The notes beneath the pieces were generated by a model. It worked only from the letters and a program-made list of their open reading frames with translations, was not told the DNA's origin and ran no database searches. This document shows, piece by piece, positions 9,533 to 59,496 of a DNA stretch of 64,000 nucleotides (positions are counted from its first letter, which is position 1; each line of letters opens with the position of its first letter). The DNA comes from Alphaproteobacteria bacterium (GTDB lineage Bacteria > Pseudomonadota > Alphaproteobacteria > Sphingomonadales > Emcibacteraceae). The position numbers and the translations under genes are program-made. The DNA lies in NCBI GenBank assembly GCA_030428615.1, contig JAUIDN010000001.1:310001-374000 (forward strand), given 5' to 3'.

Positions 9533-9558
9533 TTAACACTCATTTCATTCAGTAAATT

Positions 9559-9574
9559 GTTTTATATACAAAAC
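9559..9574. promoter_or_regulatory. Putative IclR operator GTTTT-N6-AAAAC
   Basis: The 16-bp near-perfect palindrome GTTTTATATACAAAAC sits in the middle of the 55-bp region between the divergent IclR and dioxygenase genes. It differs from the copy at 6467-6482 only in the central bases. Auto- and target regulation by the adjacent IclR protein is the simplest reading. Confidence 0.55.
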
Positions 9575-9587
9575 TTAAGGACTAGGG

Positions 9588-10208
9588 ATGACACATTCCA
9601 ATAAAAAAATCAACCGCTTAACCGCGACGAACGAGGATACATTAGGCCCTTATTACCCGATATCGTTATGCGATAACGACAATATGGATATGACAAAAAT
9701 TCGTAGCGGTGTTGTTAATGAAGCAACGGGAGAAAAAATCATCATCAAGGGCTGCGTGAAGGATAAAAACGGCAATCATGCCCATGGATGCCTTCTGGAA
9801 TTCTGGCAACCAAATGCCAACGGAATTTACCGCATTCCGGAAACGGAGGCCGATGACAAAATTGATCCGTGGTTTACCGGTTATGCCCGCCACCGCACCA
9901 GCGATGGAAATTTCAAATTAATCACTATCAAGCCCGGTGTTGATGATGAACAAAAAACACCAAGAGCCCCCTGTATAACGCTCACTATATTTTCCGATGG
10001 CATCACGCGTGTTGTCACCCAGCTTTTCTTCGATGGTGACCCCCATAATGATACTGACCCGCTTCTTCAATCGATCCCGAAGGAGCTACGCGAACGATTA
10101 ATGCTTAAAGCACTGACAAGAGCAGACGACGGAACTGTTATTTACAATATAGAAATCAAAATGGCTGGCGAAAATGAAACGCCGTTTTTTGATGACATTC
10201 TCAGTTAG
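9588..10208 (+). CDS. Intradiol ring-cleavage dioxygenase, alpha-type subunit (PcaG-like)
   Basis: Protein of 206 aa of the protocatechuate 3,4-dioxygenase fold with the TLGPYYP entry motif (18-24), the GCLLEFWQPNANGIYR strand (Tyr81) and the TIKPG turn. The segment where the catalytic subunit has an iron-binding HxH reads APCIT (Cys129, Thr131), so it lacks the iron ligands, as alpha subunits do. It most likely pairs with the next gene, 8 bp downstream, to form an alpha/beta protomer. The order alpha-beta is the reverse of the usual pcaHG. Ring cleavage of a catechol-type acid is likely; protocatechuate itself is not proven. Confidence 0.85.
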   Translation: MTHSNKKINRLTATNEDTLGPYYPISLCDNDNMDMTKIRSGVVNEATGEKIIIKGCVKDKNGNHAHGCLLEFWQPNANGIYRIPETEADDKIDPWFTGYARHRTSDGNFKLITIKPGVDDEQKTPRAPCITLTIFSDGITRVVTQLFFDGDPHNDTDPLLQSIPKELRERLMLKALTRADDGTVIYNIEIKMAGENETPFFDDILS

Positions 10209-10216
10209 GATAGACC

Positions 10217-10891
10217 ATGAGCAAATATGGACGCACATTACAAATCGGCCCAACCGATTTAACTTCAGAAAAAAGGACACCACGCCAACCGCTTCACCTT
10301 ATTCCCGAAGAAGCGCGGGCGTCATTTGTACCTTTCGCCCCCTATAATTTTAACGCGCTTCCTTCCGAAGCGGATATGACCCGACTTGCCCCCGGACGAC
10401 CACGCGCCGATGGAGAGCCCATAAAAATTACCGGGCGGGTAACCGACCAATATGGACGCCCGATCAGAAAGTCGATGATCGAAGTATGGAACGCCAATAA
10501 ATATGGCCGGTATACACATATTGAGGATTTCTCAGGGCTTCGGCTCGACCCGAATTTTCTTGGTATCGGTCGGATGATCACCGACGATGATGGTAATTAC
10601 GAATTCTGGACCATCAGACCCGGTGAATATCTAGCATTTCCCGATATCAGCCGCTGGCGTCCGAAACATATTCACTTTTCCATTCGTGGTGGTGCTTCGC
10701 GCCTTATCACACAAATGTATTTCAAGGACGACCCCCATAACGACACCGACCCGATGCGAATATTGATGGGGGATAATTTCGATGCCAATATCGGAAAGGA
10801 ATATGAAATTGAAGGGGATGAGTTTGATTGCGGATATCAATTCGATATTGTTATCGGCGGGAAGAACCCTACCTTTTTCGAGGATATCTAA
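10217..10891 (+). CDS. Intradiol ring-cleavage dioxygenase, catalytic beta-type subunit (PcaH-like)
   Basis: Protein of 224 aa with all ferric-iron ligands of intradiol dioxygenases: Tyr99 (KYGRYTH), Tyr138 (RPGEYLAF), His151 and His153 (RPKHIHF), plus the neighbouring Arg148. The length and the DPNFLGIGR and LITQMYFKDDP segments match protocatechuate 3,4-dioxygenase beta chains. It should catalyse O2-dependent ortho cleavage of a dihydroxylated aromatic ring in the cytoplasm. No pcaB, pcaC or pcaD homologue is visible alongside, so the downstream steps must be done by other families or elsewhere in the genome. Confidence 0.88.
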   Translation: MSKYGRTLQIGPTDLTSEKRTPRQPLHLIPEEARASFVPFAPYNFNALPSEADMTRLAPGRPRADGEPIKITGRVTDQYGRPIRKSMIEVWNANKYGRYTHIEDFSGLRLDPNFLGIGRMITDDDGNYEFWTIRPGEYLAFPDISRWRPKHIHFSIRGGASRLITQMYFKDDPHNDTDPMRILMGDNFDANIGKEYEIEGDEFDCGYQFDIVIGGKNPTFFEDI

Positions 10892-10913
10892 ATTGCTTAA
10901 AAATTAACATATT

Positions 10914-10980
10914 GCGCAATAGTAAACTTAAGGTTATACAGAAATCAAATGATTCCTGTATAACCCAAGGCGCAATAGTA
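10914..10980. repeat. 34-bp palindrome framed by 11-bp direct repeats
   Basis: Left arm GGTTATACAGAAATC (10932-10946) and right arm (10951-10965) are inverted copies matching at 14 of 15 positions around a 4-bp centre. The 11-mer GCGCAATAGTA occurs on both sides, at 10914-10924 and 10970-10980, the second copy touching the ATG of the 2OG oxygenase. This could be an operator for the XRE-cupin regulator two genes on, or a tiny mobile-type insertion with target duplication. Confidence 0.6.
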
Positions 10981-11960
10981 TGGCTTATGCCCAAGCAAAG
11001 ACCACCGATCCCCTGACCATTCCGGTGGTCGATATTACACCACTCCGTGATGGAAGTGATAAGGTGGGCGTTGCCAAGAAACTTCATACGGCAAGCAAAA
11101 GCCTTGGATTCATATATATCAAAGGGCACGGCATCGAAGCGTCTGTTTTTACAGATGCGCGAGTGGCCGCATATGATTTTTTCAGAAGTTCGGCAGAGCA
11201 AAAATCAGCTGTGAGAATATCATCAAAGCATCGCGGATGGATCGCGGCAGGCGGTGCCAAAATGGAAGACGATCTTAAACCGGATCTAAAAGAAAGTTTT
11301 TTATGGGCTGTTGAAAACGATAAAGGTGAAATACCGGAAGACCATACGCTTCGTGGCCCTAACCAATGGCCCGATTTTGTTCCGGATTTGCACAAACATG
11401 CGATGACTTATTTCAATAAAGCGCATGAAGTCGCCCATTTGCTCATGCGGGGCTTTGCTCTGGGGCTTGATTTGCCGGAAGACTTTTTTTTGAAAACAAG
11501 TGATAAGCCACTAAGCCGGGGATCATTTGTTTATTATCCCGATCAATCCCCCTACCCAGAAGACGGTCAATTCGGCGTGGGGCCACATACCGATTTTGGT
11601 GTTCTGACAGTATTGGCGCAGGATAATGTCGGCGGACTTGAAGTTCAAACGGCCAATGGCGAATGGATCAAAGCCCCGCCAGTCGAAGATACATTGATCG
11701 TGAATGTCGCGGACCTTCTTCATCGCTGGACCAATGGGGCCTATAAATCAACCCCGCACCGAGTGATAAACAAGTCTGGTCGGGAACGATTATCACTTGT
11801 ACTCGCATATGACCCAAACCCGGAAACGGTTATTGATCCCCGCGATATTTTTGGCCCCGATTATAAGGACGGTGAAGCAGCGATCACTTGTGGTGACTAT
11901 CTGGACTGGCGGTTTAACAAAGCCTTCTCATACCGAAAGGAACAAACAGATGAGCGATAA
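10980..11960 (+). CDS. 2-oxoglutarate/Fe(II)-dependent oxygenase (isopenicillin N synthase family)
   Basis: Protein of 326 aa with an N-terminal DIOX_N domain and a C-terminal double-stranded beta-helix. Iron ligands His203 and Asp205 (GPHTDFG) and His260 (STPHRVIN), and the 2-oxoglutarate-binding Arg270-x-Ser272, are all present. It probably hydroxylates or dealkylates a small substrate. The start has AAGG 9 nt upstream. The 11-bp overlap with the following regulator gene indicates one operon, headed by the 34-bp palindrome. No membrane or signal segment is seen; the substrate is unknown. Confidence 0.9.
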   Translation: MAYAQAKTTDPLTIPVVDITPLRDGSDKVGVAKKLHTASKSLGFIYIKGHGIEASVFTDARVAAYDFFRSSAEQKSAVRISSKHRGWIAAGGAKMEDDLKPDLKESFLWAVENDKGEIPEDHTLRGPNQWPDFVPDLHKHAMTYFNKAHEVAHLLMRGFALGLDLPEDFFLKTSDKPLSRGSFVYYPDQSPYPEDGQFGVGPHTDFGVLTVLAQDNVGGLEVQTANGEWIKAPPVEDTLIVNVADLLHRWTNGAYKSTPHRVINKSGRERLSLVLAYDPNPETVIDPRDIFGPDYKDGEAAITCGDYLDWRFNKAFSYRKEQTDER

Positions 11961-12525
11961 CCAGGTGGATATAGCCATTGGCGCATCCCTTAAAGATATG
12001 CGCGAAAGCAGAGGCCTAAGTGCCAAGGCGCTCGCTGAAAGTGCCGATGTTTCAGCCGCCATGATCAGCAGGATCGAAAACGGTCAGGTTTCCCCTTCTA
12101 TTTCGACGTTGAGCGCGTTGAGTGAGGCACTCGACATGCCGCTGGTCAGTTTTTTCCGAGAGACCGCCACAGATCATGTTGATTTTACCCACGTCAAAGA
12201 CGGCCAGGGCATCCATTCCACCCGAATTATTGATAAGCACAGTCATGATTTCATCAATCTTGCATCCCACATCCGCCGTGATCTGGGGTTTGAAGCCCAT
12301 ATCGTAACAATGACAAAACAGGAAGGACGCGCCCCAACATACGTCGGTCACGGCGTGGTTTTTATGTATGTCAAGGAGGGAGAAGCTAAATTCCAGTACG
12401 GACAGCGTGAAATTCACCTGAAAGAAGGCGATAGCCTGACACTTGATTGTGAGCTGAACCATGGCATTTCAGAAGTTCTTTCCGACACATTCACTTTCCT
12501 TACAATAAAGGCGGAGCGCAGGTAA
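11950..12525 (+). CDS. XRE-family HTH regulator with C-terminal cupin domain
   Basis: Regulator of 191 aa: helix-turn-helix at about residues 8-62 (LSAKALAESADVSAAMISRIE) followed by a cupin sensor at about 110-185 (GHGVVFMYVKEGEA, LKEGDSLTLDC, NHGISE). The ATG at 11950, preceded by AAAGGA, is preferred over upstream in-frame starts because those lie well inside the oxygenase gene and add a non-conserved extension. Proteins of this architecture usually repress or activate an adjacent amino-acid or amine catabolic gene in response to a small ligand. The palindrome at 10932-10965 is the natural operator candidate. Confidence 0.9.
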   Translation: MSDNQVDIAIGASLKDMRESRGLSAKALAESADVSAAMISRIENGQVSPSISTLSALSEALDMPLVSFFRETATDHVDFTHVKDGQGIHSTRIIDKHSHDFINLASHIRRDLGFEAHIVTMTKQEGRAPTYVGHGVVFMYVKEGEAKFQYGQREIHLKEGDSLTLDCELNHGISEVLSDTFTFLTIKAERR

Positions 12526-13589
12526 TGACAGTTAACGACGATCATATTTCGGGGGCGGAAAACCTTCTGATAAACTGCGCGGATCTGAAGACGGGGGACA
12601 CTTTGCTGATTGTTTCCGAAAACCCTGACCTTGGCTGGTATGACGGAAAAACGGCCGATTTTGTCGCTGACCATGCGCGGAAGATGGGGGTAGAACTGTC
12701 AAAAGTTGACGTTGGTTCACCCGAAAATGTTCGCTGCCCGAAACTGCATAACATGATAGAAAATCATGATTGCACTATTTTCTTTTCGCGTATTGGCGAT
12801 CAGGACCGGTTTTCACATCCCAAGCCGGGCACCAGAAGCATCATGTGCTATATCCGCGATATGGATATGCTGGCGTCACCGTTTGGAACGGCACATTATA
12901 GGGCCATTCGTGAGTTCAAGGAAACCATTGATAAAATATTATGCTCTGCCGATAATATTGAAATAAGCTGCCCACTTGGCACGCATTTTTGCGGTTCGGA
13001 TATTTCGGACAAAATAGATGAGCCAGAAGATGTGGGGGTCTTGCGGTTTCCGCTTGGTGTACCGGCACCAACACCGGCGGGCGGTTTTTCGGGGCGCATC
13101 ATTATGGACCGGTATCTGGCGCCGACCGGGTCAAAAGTTTATGATCCGCCATATTTGAAGCTCGAGCAACCGATTTTTGCAGAAGTGGAAATGGGACGAA
13201 TTACGGAATTCAAAGGCCCCGAAAATACCGTGAATAAGGTCAAAGAACATTATAAGCGTGTTTCTGATCAATTCGGTATTGACCCGGCGGTTGTTCATTC
13301 GTGGCATGCCGGTATTCACCCCGGATGTGATTATCGGGTTCCGGAATCCGACAATCCGGACCGATGGTCGAATACCGTTTTCTGCCAACCGGAATACGTT
13401 CATTTTCATACATGTGGTGATTACGCACCGGGTGAAATAAGTTGCACCCTTCCCGATCACTCCATCAAAATCGACGGAGTGTCGTTGTGGCAGAATGGAC
13501 AGTTGTTGCCACATCTTCACAGCCAAACAAAAGCATGTCTGAATAAATGGCCGGTGCTTCAGGAACTCTTTAACTATTCCGCTGGCTGA
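12525..13589 (+). CDS. NicX/M29-aminopeptidase-like protein, function uncertain
   Basis: Protein of 354 aa, translationally coupled to the regulator (TAATG, 1-bp overlap). The overall layout (N-terminal alpha/beta domain; C-terminal HAGIHPG segment, then FHTCGDYAPGEISC and a SIKIDG end) recalls the aminopeptidase T/M29 family and 2,5-dihydroxypyridine dioxygenase NicX. The NicX-type His-x-Asp near the C-terminus is not obvious; the corresponding stretch reads Cys-Thr-Leu-Pro. It may therefore use other metal ligands or catalyse another reaction. The CDS runs into the convergent antiporter gene by 16 bp. I regard the fold assignment as tentative. Confidence 0.5.
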   Translation: MTVNDDHISGAENLLINCADLKTGDTLLIVSENPDLGWYDGKTADFVADHARKMGVELSKVDVGSPENVRCPKLHNMIENHDCTIFFSRIGDQDRFSHPKPGTRSIMCYIRDMDMLASPFGTAHYRAIREFKETIDKILCSADNIEISCPLGTHFCGSDISDKIDEPEDVGVLRFPLGVPAPTPAGGFSGRIIMDRYLAPTGSKVYDPPYLKLEQPIFAEVEMGRITEFKGPENTVNKVKEHYKRVSDQFGIDPAVVHSWHAGIHPGCDYRVPESDNPDRWSNTVFCQPEYVHFHTCGDYAPGEISCTLPDHSIKIDGVSLWQNGQLLPHLHSQTKACLNKWPVLQELFNYSAG

Positions 13590-57926: not shown

Positions 57927-58708
57927 CTCTGGCCTTCCTTTTATTTTTGACAATCATTAGCCCATTTGGCATTTTTCTATACGCATTTGTAAAAGTGACC
58001 GGCGAAAGCATCATGAATGCATCTTTTGCGTCACTCGGGTATCTATCATCGATAGACCTTCTTTTTTCAATCAGTGTCGGGTTATTTTCAACACTGGTAT
58101 CCGTGCTGATTGGTGCACTTATCTGTTTTTACCTGATCATTTCCGGAAAAACCAAACTCAAATATGGCATCCTGAACATTGTGCTGGTCCTACCACATAT
58201 CGGGTTTGCCTATATCATTTACCTGTTTTTTTCACAGACCGGGTTTTTATTCCGATTTCTGGACCTGTTCGGCATCGCTGCGGATATAAACCTGGTCAAT
58301 GATGGTTGGGGTGTCGGAATTTTTTTGAATTATGTCCTCAAAGAAATACCATTCGTTATTCTGTACCTGCTGGCAACGCACAAACCACAAAACAAGGATC
58401 ATATTTTCGCAGCAACTGATTTAGGGGCAGGTTATTTTGAAACATTCCGCAAGATATATTTACCGTTAAATTCTGTACAGGTCGTTTCCATTTCCATTGT
58501 TATCTTTGCCTTCATTATCGGGAATTACGAAGTGCCAAATTTGCTTGGGGCAAATACACCGCAGTTTTTTTCCGTGTCCGCGCTGAATAATTTTCAAAGC
58601 ATTGATCCGGACCAGAATATAGCCGCTTATCTTAAAGTGACGATTATATTTTTCACGGCATTCCTTATGTCTATATTTCTGCGGCTTTTGGTGCGGAGGA
58701 TGAGATGA
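57899..58708 (+). CDS. ABC transporter permease (YnjC N-half-like)
   Basis: Inner-membrane permease of 269 aa with six predicted helices. The cytoplasmic coupling (EAA-type) loop is seen as AATDLGAGYFETFRKIYLPL. It corresponds to the first half of E. coli YnjC. The start lies within the end of the binding-protein gene, and the stop overlaps the next permease as ATGA. Confidence 0.88.
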   Translation: MEKEYYSKIALAFLLFLTIISPFGIFLYAFVKVTGESIMNASFASLGYLSSIDLLFSISVGLFSTLVSVLIGALICFYLIISGKTKLKYGILNIVLVLPHIGFAYIIYLFFSQTGFLFRFLDLFGIAADINLVNDGWGVGIFLNYVLKEIPFVILYLLATHKPQNKDHIFAATDLGAGYFETFRKIYLPLNSVQVVSISIVIFAFIIGNYEVPNLLGANTPQFFSVSALNNFQSIDPDQNIAAYLKVTIIFFTAFLMSIFLRLLVRRMR

Positions 58709-59496
58709 AAAACAAGTCGTTCGTCTTTCGTCTGTTGAATATTTTTTATGTTATTCTTTTCGTACAATTGGGGTTCTGGCTTCTGGCGCCGCGAATCCCC
58801 TACCCACAGATAATCCCCGATCGATTTGATTTTGAAGGCCTGTTGGCGCTTCAGAATTTTGACTTGTTTTTTAGCGCCTTATTCAGTTCGCTTCTTGTCG
58901 CGATGCTAGTGATTATCATAACAATGATGTTTGCAATGCCGCTTGCATTGCTGCTTACACGGCATCAAAGCACGACAACAAGGATCCTTTCAAGCCTGTT
59001 ATATCTGCCGTTGCTTGCGCCCGTATTGCTGCCAGCTTTCGGATTATATGAAATGTTCATTAGGGCGAATATTATTGGCACACATTTATCCATCGCCATC
59101 GCGCAGTCAACAATACTGTTTCCCTATATGTTAAAACCGATTGAAAATTTCCTTAAATTTCGCGGTTATCATCTGGAACTTGTCGCTGCGGATCTGGGTG
59201 AGAGCGGATTAAACAGTTTCATGAAAATAACACTTCCCGCGTTGATTTCACCGGTTATATTTGGAAGTTTTCTGGTCTTTATCGGCAGTTTCAATGATTA
59301 TCTGATTGCATTTTTAATTGGTGATCTGCAGGTATCGACACTTTCCGTTGTTCTTTATCCGCTGATCCAGTCGGACAACAGAATTACAAGCATCATTACA
59401 ATTTTATTTTATGTCGCGCCGCTAATCTTACTGGTGGTTTATTCATCACGGCTTAAAATCATCAAAAAAGCGGGAAATTCATATGCTCGAACTTAA
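58705..59496 (+). CDS. ABC transporter permease (YnjC C-half-like)
   Basis: Second permease, 263 aa, six helices, with the coupling loop VAADLGESGLNSFMKITLPALISP. It corresponds to the second half of YnjC, so the fused E. coli permease is split into two genes here. It overlaps both neighbours (4 and 14 bp). Confidence 0.88.
   Translation: MKNKSFVFRLLNIFYVILFVQLGFWLLAPRIPYPQIIPDRFDFEGLLALQNFDLFFSALFSSLLVAMLVIIITMMFAMPLALLLTRHQSTTTRILSSLLYLPLLAPVLLPAFGLYEMFIRANIIGTHLSIAIAQSTILFPYMLKPIENFLKFRGYHLELVAADLGESGLNSFMKITLPALISPVIFGSFLVFIGSFNDYLIAFLIGDLQVSTLSVVLYPLIQSDNRITSIITILFYVAPLILLVVYSSRLKIIKKAGNSYART

Follow-up and report, generated by a model that had tools for sequence, protein, structure and literature searches.

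The 88-nt gap between the stop codon of a pcaB-like gene and the start (10980) of a 2OG-Fe(II) oxygenase gene holds an element that is real, conserved within its genus and functional-looking, and the palindrome at its core makes most sense as an RNA element, one arm of which would hold a promoter, rather than as an operator for the XRE-cupin regulator. The reading that we favour, and consider fairly probable, is that the gap is a self-insulating promoter lying within a hairpin that blocks the ribosome-binding site, silencing read-through from upstream. A candidate promoter, which we call promoter B (-35 element in the second of two operator-like sites, 17 nt, then TATACA), would start RNA at about 10947, halfway through the palindrome, and this RNA, having no left arm, would present an accessible start region and could be translated. 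Any RNA reading through from the pcaAB-like genes would carry both arms and have its Shine-Dalgarno sequence buried, so we propose that the 2OG gene would go untranslated from it; through overlapping starts, the XRE-cupin gene and the gene for a 354-aa protein would probably be shut along with it. The tandem pair of operator-like sites is the predicted binding place of the XRE-cupin protein that the operon itself encodes. The features are listed here by their positions in the window, by which we mean the whole 64,000-nucleotide stretch of DNA that was analysed.

9588 to 10208, plus strand: pcaA-like gene (intradiol dioxygenase, protocatechuate 3,4-dioxygenase alpha-like; Pfam Dioxygenase_C, NCBIfam TIGR02423 above its cut-off)
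10217 to 10891, plus strand: pcaB-like gene (intradiol dioxygenase, beta-like; Pfam Dioxygenase_C, TIGR02422 below its cut-off)
10893 to 10907, plus strand: operator-like site 1, TTGC-N7-TTAA, a degenerate TTGC-N7-GCAA (aligned in nine congeners and matched to TTGC-N7-GCAA pairs of other taxa)
10910 to 10917, plus strand: 5' strand of the outer stem, holding the start of repeat copy 1 (pairs with 10970-10977)
10912 to 10926, plus strand: operator-like site 2, TTGC-N7-TAAA, 19 bp after site 1 (congener alignment and pairs of other taxa)
10912 to 10917, plus strand: candidate -35 element of promoter B, TTGCGC (TTG[CT]NN 17 nt from TATA in all nine congeners; 3 of 6 positions match the sigma-70 consensus)
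10927 to 10929, plus strand: CTT pairing with AAG (10967-10969) of the Shine-Dalgarno sequence (fold of the read-through RNA)
10932 to 10965, plus strand: palindrome, the core hairpin (sequence, fold, shuffles and covariation)
10935 to 10940, plus strand: candidate -10 element TATACA in the left arm of the palindrome (TATA, 10935-10938, invariant in all nine congeners)
10946 to 10948, plus strand: predicted transcription start at the palindrome centre, about 6-7 nt after the -10 element
10967 to 10970, plus strand: Shine-Dalgarno-like AAGG (all four bases paired in the minimum-energy fold of the read-through RNA)
10970 to 10977, plus strand: 3' strand of the outer stem, at the start of repeat copy 2 (fold of the read-through RNA)
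10980 to 11960, plus strand: 2OG-Fe(II) oxygenase gene (Pfam DIOX_N and 2OG-FeII_Oxy above cut-off)
11950 to 12525, plus strand: XRE-cupin regulator gene (HTH_3 above the Pfam cut-off, Cupin_2 slightly below it)
12525 to 13589, plus strand: gene for a 354-aa protein, 3' of the XRE-cupin gene (start overlaps the XRE stop by 1 nt)

The pcaB-like gene is the last one ahead of the gap, and its stop codon (10889-10891) lies 1 nt before the operator-like sites. The likely start codon of the XRE-cupin gene, as judged from the translation, overlaps the end of the 2OG gene; the product has an N-terminal XRE helix-turn-helix (HTH_3, 56.4 bits for a cut-off of 23) and a C-terminal region that scores slightly below the cut-off for Cupin_2 (26.5 bits, E 5e-6, cut-off 27.2). 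The 354-aa protein (12525-13589) matches neither Pfam nor NCBIfam at E<=0.001, nor any PDB sequence at E<=1, and it is conserved alongside the 2OG gene in many proteobacteria. On the far side of the pcaA-like gene, a divergent gap of 55 bp (9533-9587) presumably holds the pcaAB promoter; the IclR-type gene across that gap is PcaR/PcaU-like, with a score below the cut-off of that model.

Of 13 genomes in the genus, 9 (counting that of the window) have a close homolog of the 2OG protein (E<=1e-60), and a search at E<=1e-80 through 32 genomes of the family and 396 of the order gave no further matches. Scanning the GTDB collection for 2OG loci gave at least 79, of which those of the same genus are filed under Kordiimonadaceae or Emcibacteraceae or as unplaced Alphaproteobacteria MAGs. 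The nine genomes of the genus have the same layout, namely an intradiol-dioxygenase pair, a gap, the 2OG oxygenase, the XRE-cupin regulator and the gene for the 354-aa protein, and in all nine the gap consists of two layers, the operator-like block followed by an inverted repeat.

The sequence-only reading of this DNA had described a 34-bp palindrome between 11-bp direct repeats, and both are there. The arms (10932-10947 and 10950-10965, 16 nt each) are complementary at 15 of 16 positions around 2 nt, which is the same palindrome that had been put as half-sites matching at 14 of 15 positions around 4 bp, and the repeats, GCGCAATAGTA at 10914-10924 and 10970-10980, are exact. As RNA, the leader (10927-10982) folds more strongly than all 1000 of its dinucleotide shuffles (z -4.6). 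An Rfam search gave three matches, all under the gathering scores, and the better one over the leader was to a miRNA model on the minus strand (15.4 bits, with 110 required).

In the other genomes of the genus, the inverted repeat has drifted in sequence, with a mean identity over the nine congeners of 57% for the left arm and 54% for the right (about 50-57% over the arms), and yet pairing has largely been kept. The hairpin folds in all nine leaders (mean z -3.1; p<0.05 in 8 of the 9, with 1000 shuffles each), the leader of L066 being the one without significance (p 0.215). In the aligned helix, 79.6% of the cells pair, a value reached by 4 of 500 shuffles, against at most 52.8% when the partner is slid, and all five covariation measures fall when it is slid by 1-3 columns, a comparison that favours the tested helix in that it came from RNAalifold on the same alignment. 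Nine cells are altered on both sides and still pair (0 of 500 shuffles), and the covariation score is matched by 6 of 500; the two weak measures of the five are the pairs changed on both sides (22 of 500) and the further pair types (125 of 500), and nine related sequences are a small sample. Since the energy that RNAalifold gave for the MAFFT alignment is near zero (-0.76, with a covariation term of +0.32), we rely on single folds, pair counts and opening costs.

The fold of the read-through RNA reaches beyond the palindrome to the start region of the 2OG gene, with pairs at 10910-10917/10970-10977, 10927-10929/10967-10969, 10932-10941/10956-10965 and 10943-10946/10951-10954. Opening the region from -18 to +3 costs 17.4 kcal/mol in the read-through RNA of the window against 6.2 in RNA from 10947, a measure that we chose after seeing both it and the unpairedness of the Shine-Dalgarno sequence. 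The latter, as a mean over six bases, is lower in the long RNA in only 6 of the 9 congeners; for CAAGGC in the window, the mean unpaired probability is 0.35 in the long RNA and 0.36 in the short one, while in L044 and L068 the order is reversed, with the Shine-Dalgarno sequence less accessible in the short RNA. The start region is open in all RNA starts tested from 10935 to 10951 (5.4-6.7 kcal/mol), and the block persists in RNAs starting at 10929 and 10932 (11.0 and 10.6 kcal/mol, respectively). Ribosomes finishing the pcaB-like gene should not melt the outer stem, because the stop codon ends 18 nt before it.

Computed occlusion recurs in most of the nine congeners. Over all nine, opening costs 5.7-21.5 kcal/mol in the read-through RNA against 3.4-7.4 in a short RNA assumed to start 33 nt before the start codon, and in comparison with 150 shuffles of the upstream part the mean z is +5.94, with p<0.01 in seven of the nine; occlusion is weak in L102 (5.7 kcal/mol, p 0.073) and L066 (8.1 kcal/mol, p 0.100). 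As a control, a mean z of +0.15 came from 16 XRE-bearing orthologs picked by hand from the 22 of other taxa among the listed loci; L046, L047, L071, L073, L074 and L085 were omitted, most for distance or an unclear start and L074 for no stated reason. One of the 16, L077, is also occluded (14.0 against 6.6 kcal/mol, p 0.033). Other starts in the same genomes gave mean z values of -0.73 for pcaA (8 starts), -0.22 for pcaB (8), 0.04 for the XRE gene (9) and 0.26 for the 354-aa gene (9), with 40 shuffles each. Among 51 ORF starts of the window, with start codons uncurated, the 2OG start ranks second by opening cost (17.4, where the mean is 7.3 and the standard deviation 4.0). The one start above it, also with an uncurated start codon, is that of the ORF at 58705-59496 (20.2 kcal/mol).

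A promoter inside the left arm is suggested by what the arm has kept. TATA lies exactly 17 nt past the second TTG[CT]NN in all nine congeners; of the XRE-linked orthologs in other taxa, 21 of the listed loci were compared (the 22 XRE-bearing ones from outside the genus minus L046), and none has it there. In the congeners it is the sole run of two or more invariant columns within 10927-10979. The right-arm columns facing it (10959-10962) are less conserved (7, 5, 7 and 8 of 9), and thus the left arm is under a constraint beyond pairing. The mean match of this new -10 element is 4.44 in the congeners and 1.57 in other taxa, while that of an older -10 position, inside site 2, is 4.10 of 6 over the 21 loci of other taxa against 3.22 of 6 in the congeners, where it reads, for example, CAATAG in the window and TATAAG in L043. 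By consensus, promoter B would be weak (3 of 6 for the -35 element and 4-5 of 6 for the -10 element, the last position of which is never T), and a promoter scan of the gap listed none, not even promoter B. We tentatively picture, as something possible rather than probable, a chromosomal translational insulator in which the promoter moved 18 bp downstream with respect to the operators and the hairpin grew around the new -10 element, leaving upstream RNA translationally silent and taking the place of a terminator.

The older position offers another way to read the same gap. An ancestral promoter, with its -35 element in the first TTGC site and its -10 element in the second, would start RNA at about 10929, and the hairpin would then form the 5' end of the operon mRNA, serving in protection from decay or in the tuning of translation, for instance by temperature or a ligand. 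This promoter is better in other taxa (TATAAT in L045, L047, L051, L077 and L081, which in the tandem pair of L051 sits inside the second repeat), and the hairpin would begin only a few nucleotides after its start. We nevertheless regard this as unlikely: the ancestral -10 element has decayed in the nine congeners, whereas the TATA in the arm is invariant, and an RNA beginning at 10929 would keep its start region hidden (11.0 against the 6.2 kcal/mol of the shorter RNA), which would amount to a constant self-block.

The self-insulating promoter that we prefer resembles known arrangements in mobile elements and phages. In IS10/Tn10 and IS50/Tn5, read-through RNA folds over the start region and RNA from the element's own promoter does not. 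Here too, a fold over the start region is predicted only for the read-through RNA; unlike in those elements, we found no sign of a mobile element and no further copies. The part of a Tn5 paper available to us holds no description of protection from outside transcription (PMC4265352). In phage T4, as described in a review, the leaders of gene e (lysozyme), soc, 49 and I-TevI bury the start region in a helix in long RNAs; in the case of gene e, the DNA that encodes the 5' strand of the hairpin contains late promoters, and the short RNAs made from them escape (PMC3014915). As in gene e, the start region in the window is, by computation, costly to open in the long RNA and open in the short one. 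In contrast to gene e, the window's element sits in a bacterial chromosome between two catabolic operons and combines a sigma-70-like candidate promoter with tandem sites for a regulator, and its predicted block would serve to insulate co-oriented operons rather than as a time switch. A search of the open-access literature with few terms found no chromosomal case of a translation-blocking hairpin that bears a promoter, and it is the chromosomal, operon-separating use that would be new.

How tightly packed, co-oriented operons without terminators are kept under separate control is seldom explained. If our reading is true, a promoter built into one arm of a hairpin lets only its own transcripts be translated, and such an insulator would prevent untimely synthesis of the XRE-cupin regulator. 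Embedding a -10 element in a hairpin may then be a general and overlooked means of separating tight co-oriented operons, one with a searchable signature, namely a start codon covered by a covarying stem in which one arm contains an invariant -10 element.

The sequence-only reading had placed a regulatory element in front of the 2OG/XRE-cupin operon, which seems right in that a likely XRE-cupin operator is present in the gap; it had suggested the palindrome, though unusually long for one, as that operator, and here the likely operator is instead the tandem pair just upstream (10893-10926), which tracks the XRE-cupin gene across taxa. This block consists of two degenerate 15-bp inverted repeats of the TTGC-N7-GCAA type, set in tandem 19 bp apart, and the congeners have an ATTGCN6ATTAANNNATTGCN6GTAAA-like sequence at 10892-10926, with a mean pairwise identity over 10893-10926 of 76% among the nine. 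In the host genome, the congener pattern occurs once without mismatch, and the sole other match has 3 mismatches. In other taxa the 2OG gene often follows a clearer version of the pair, with two TTGC-N7-GCAA repeats at the same 19-bp distance. Among the 78 listed loci with upstream DNA (L098, having none, was excluded), a tandem score of at least 12 of 16 was reached by 27 of the 30 XRE-bearing loci (8 of the genus and 22 others) against 2 of the 48 XRE-less ones (Fisher p 2e-15), scores that are partly circular in that the pattern was drawn from the same loci; the presence of XRE was tabulated after the motif had been noticed and was not used for drawing it. With a score of at least 11, the counts among the listed loci are 28 of 30 and 7 of 48.

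The sites of the window are themselves degenerate, scoring 12 of 16. The XRE-bearing loci under the threshold are L057 (11), L060 (10, at the usual distance) and L046 (10), in the last of which the 2OG gene lies 8 nt after a CMD gene, and the XRE-less loci with high scores are L067 (12, at -66) and L082 (13, at -169, by eye inside an upstream reading frame). A further group of loci from SAR116 and other marine bacteria (L079, L080, L082-L084, L086, L087, L089-L097, L099, L104 and L119) have the 2OG gene and the 354-aa gene together with no XRE ortholog detected, and their tandem scores are 11 or less, except for that of L082.

The XRE helices are near-identical among the orthologs, and, by eye, 31 ortholog rows have nearly the same S[AP][AS]M[IV]SRIE segment. 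XRE proteins are often autoregulatory dimers on palindromes, according to the available part of one paper (PMC12565409), and the XRE-cupin proteins of Pseudomonas are described in the accessible sections of another as local repressors that bind beside their own genes (PMC7901475). Given that the tandem pair tracks XRE, that the recognition segment is near-constant and that autoregulation has precedents, the pair at 10893-10926 is likely to be the XRE-cupin operator, a prediction from sequence that would extend to a set of such regulators from proteobacteria, marine ones among them. The Pseudomonas repressors share with our locus the setting in small-molecule catabolism, sites beside the regulator's own gene and palindromic motifs; in contrast to the binding predicted here, the sections of that account available to us mention no "tandem" pair spaced by 19 bp (PMC7901475).

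That the palindrome is itself a DNA operator centred on the start site, for the XRE-cupin protein, an IclR protein or some other, seems to us quite improbable. Repressor sites typically lie over the -10 element and the +1 position, which speaks for this alternative, and the left-arm sequence GGTTATACAG[AG]AATCA is common to the window and L088. On the other hand, unlike an operator, the arms largely keep pairing and not sequence between congeners, drifting to about 50-57% identity where the tandem block stands at 76% and the XRE helices are near-identical, and the tandem pair already accounts for XRE. Nor is there a further copy in the genome: a search for the 10-bp half-site found 4 places, 2 of them the palindrome itself, with no second palindrome copy, and the 94-bp region gave, besides itself, only four matches in the host genome, of 14-19 bases (E 0.5-3.4).

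We give still less weight to a hairpin acting as a weak terminator, or as a stabiliser of the mRNA end, for the pcaAB-like RNA. One of the congeners, L057, has a stem of ACTCCCC and GGGGAGT followed by TTTTT that would fit this role, but the window has no T-run, and a terminator scan of the gap listed none. The G+C-rich hairpin of L057 (3904-4006) also has the Shine-Dalgarno sequence in its stem, and it could terminate as well.

The sequence-only reading had also offered a miniature insertion with an 11-bp target-site duplication, for which an inverted repeat flanked by direct repeats does speak, but which is very hard to maintain, since the inverted repeat stands at the same position in all nine congeners with a drifted sequence and has no other copy in the genome. 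The searches with the half-site and the 94-bp region, which would have shown the several copies of a MITE, gave none, and comparison with close relatives, as had been suggested, found the inverted repeat in place in 9 of 9, with no pattern of presence and absence and no empty sites. The first repeat copy falls within the ancestral block, which all nine congeners conserve, though not as the exact 11-mer, and the second copy is, by eye, absent from the other eight leaders. The direct repeats take part in the computed RNA fold as well: because ATTGCGCAAT is self-complementary, they form the outer stem of the hairpin, with AUUGCGC (10911-10917) pairing with GCGCAAU (10970-10976).
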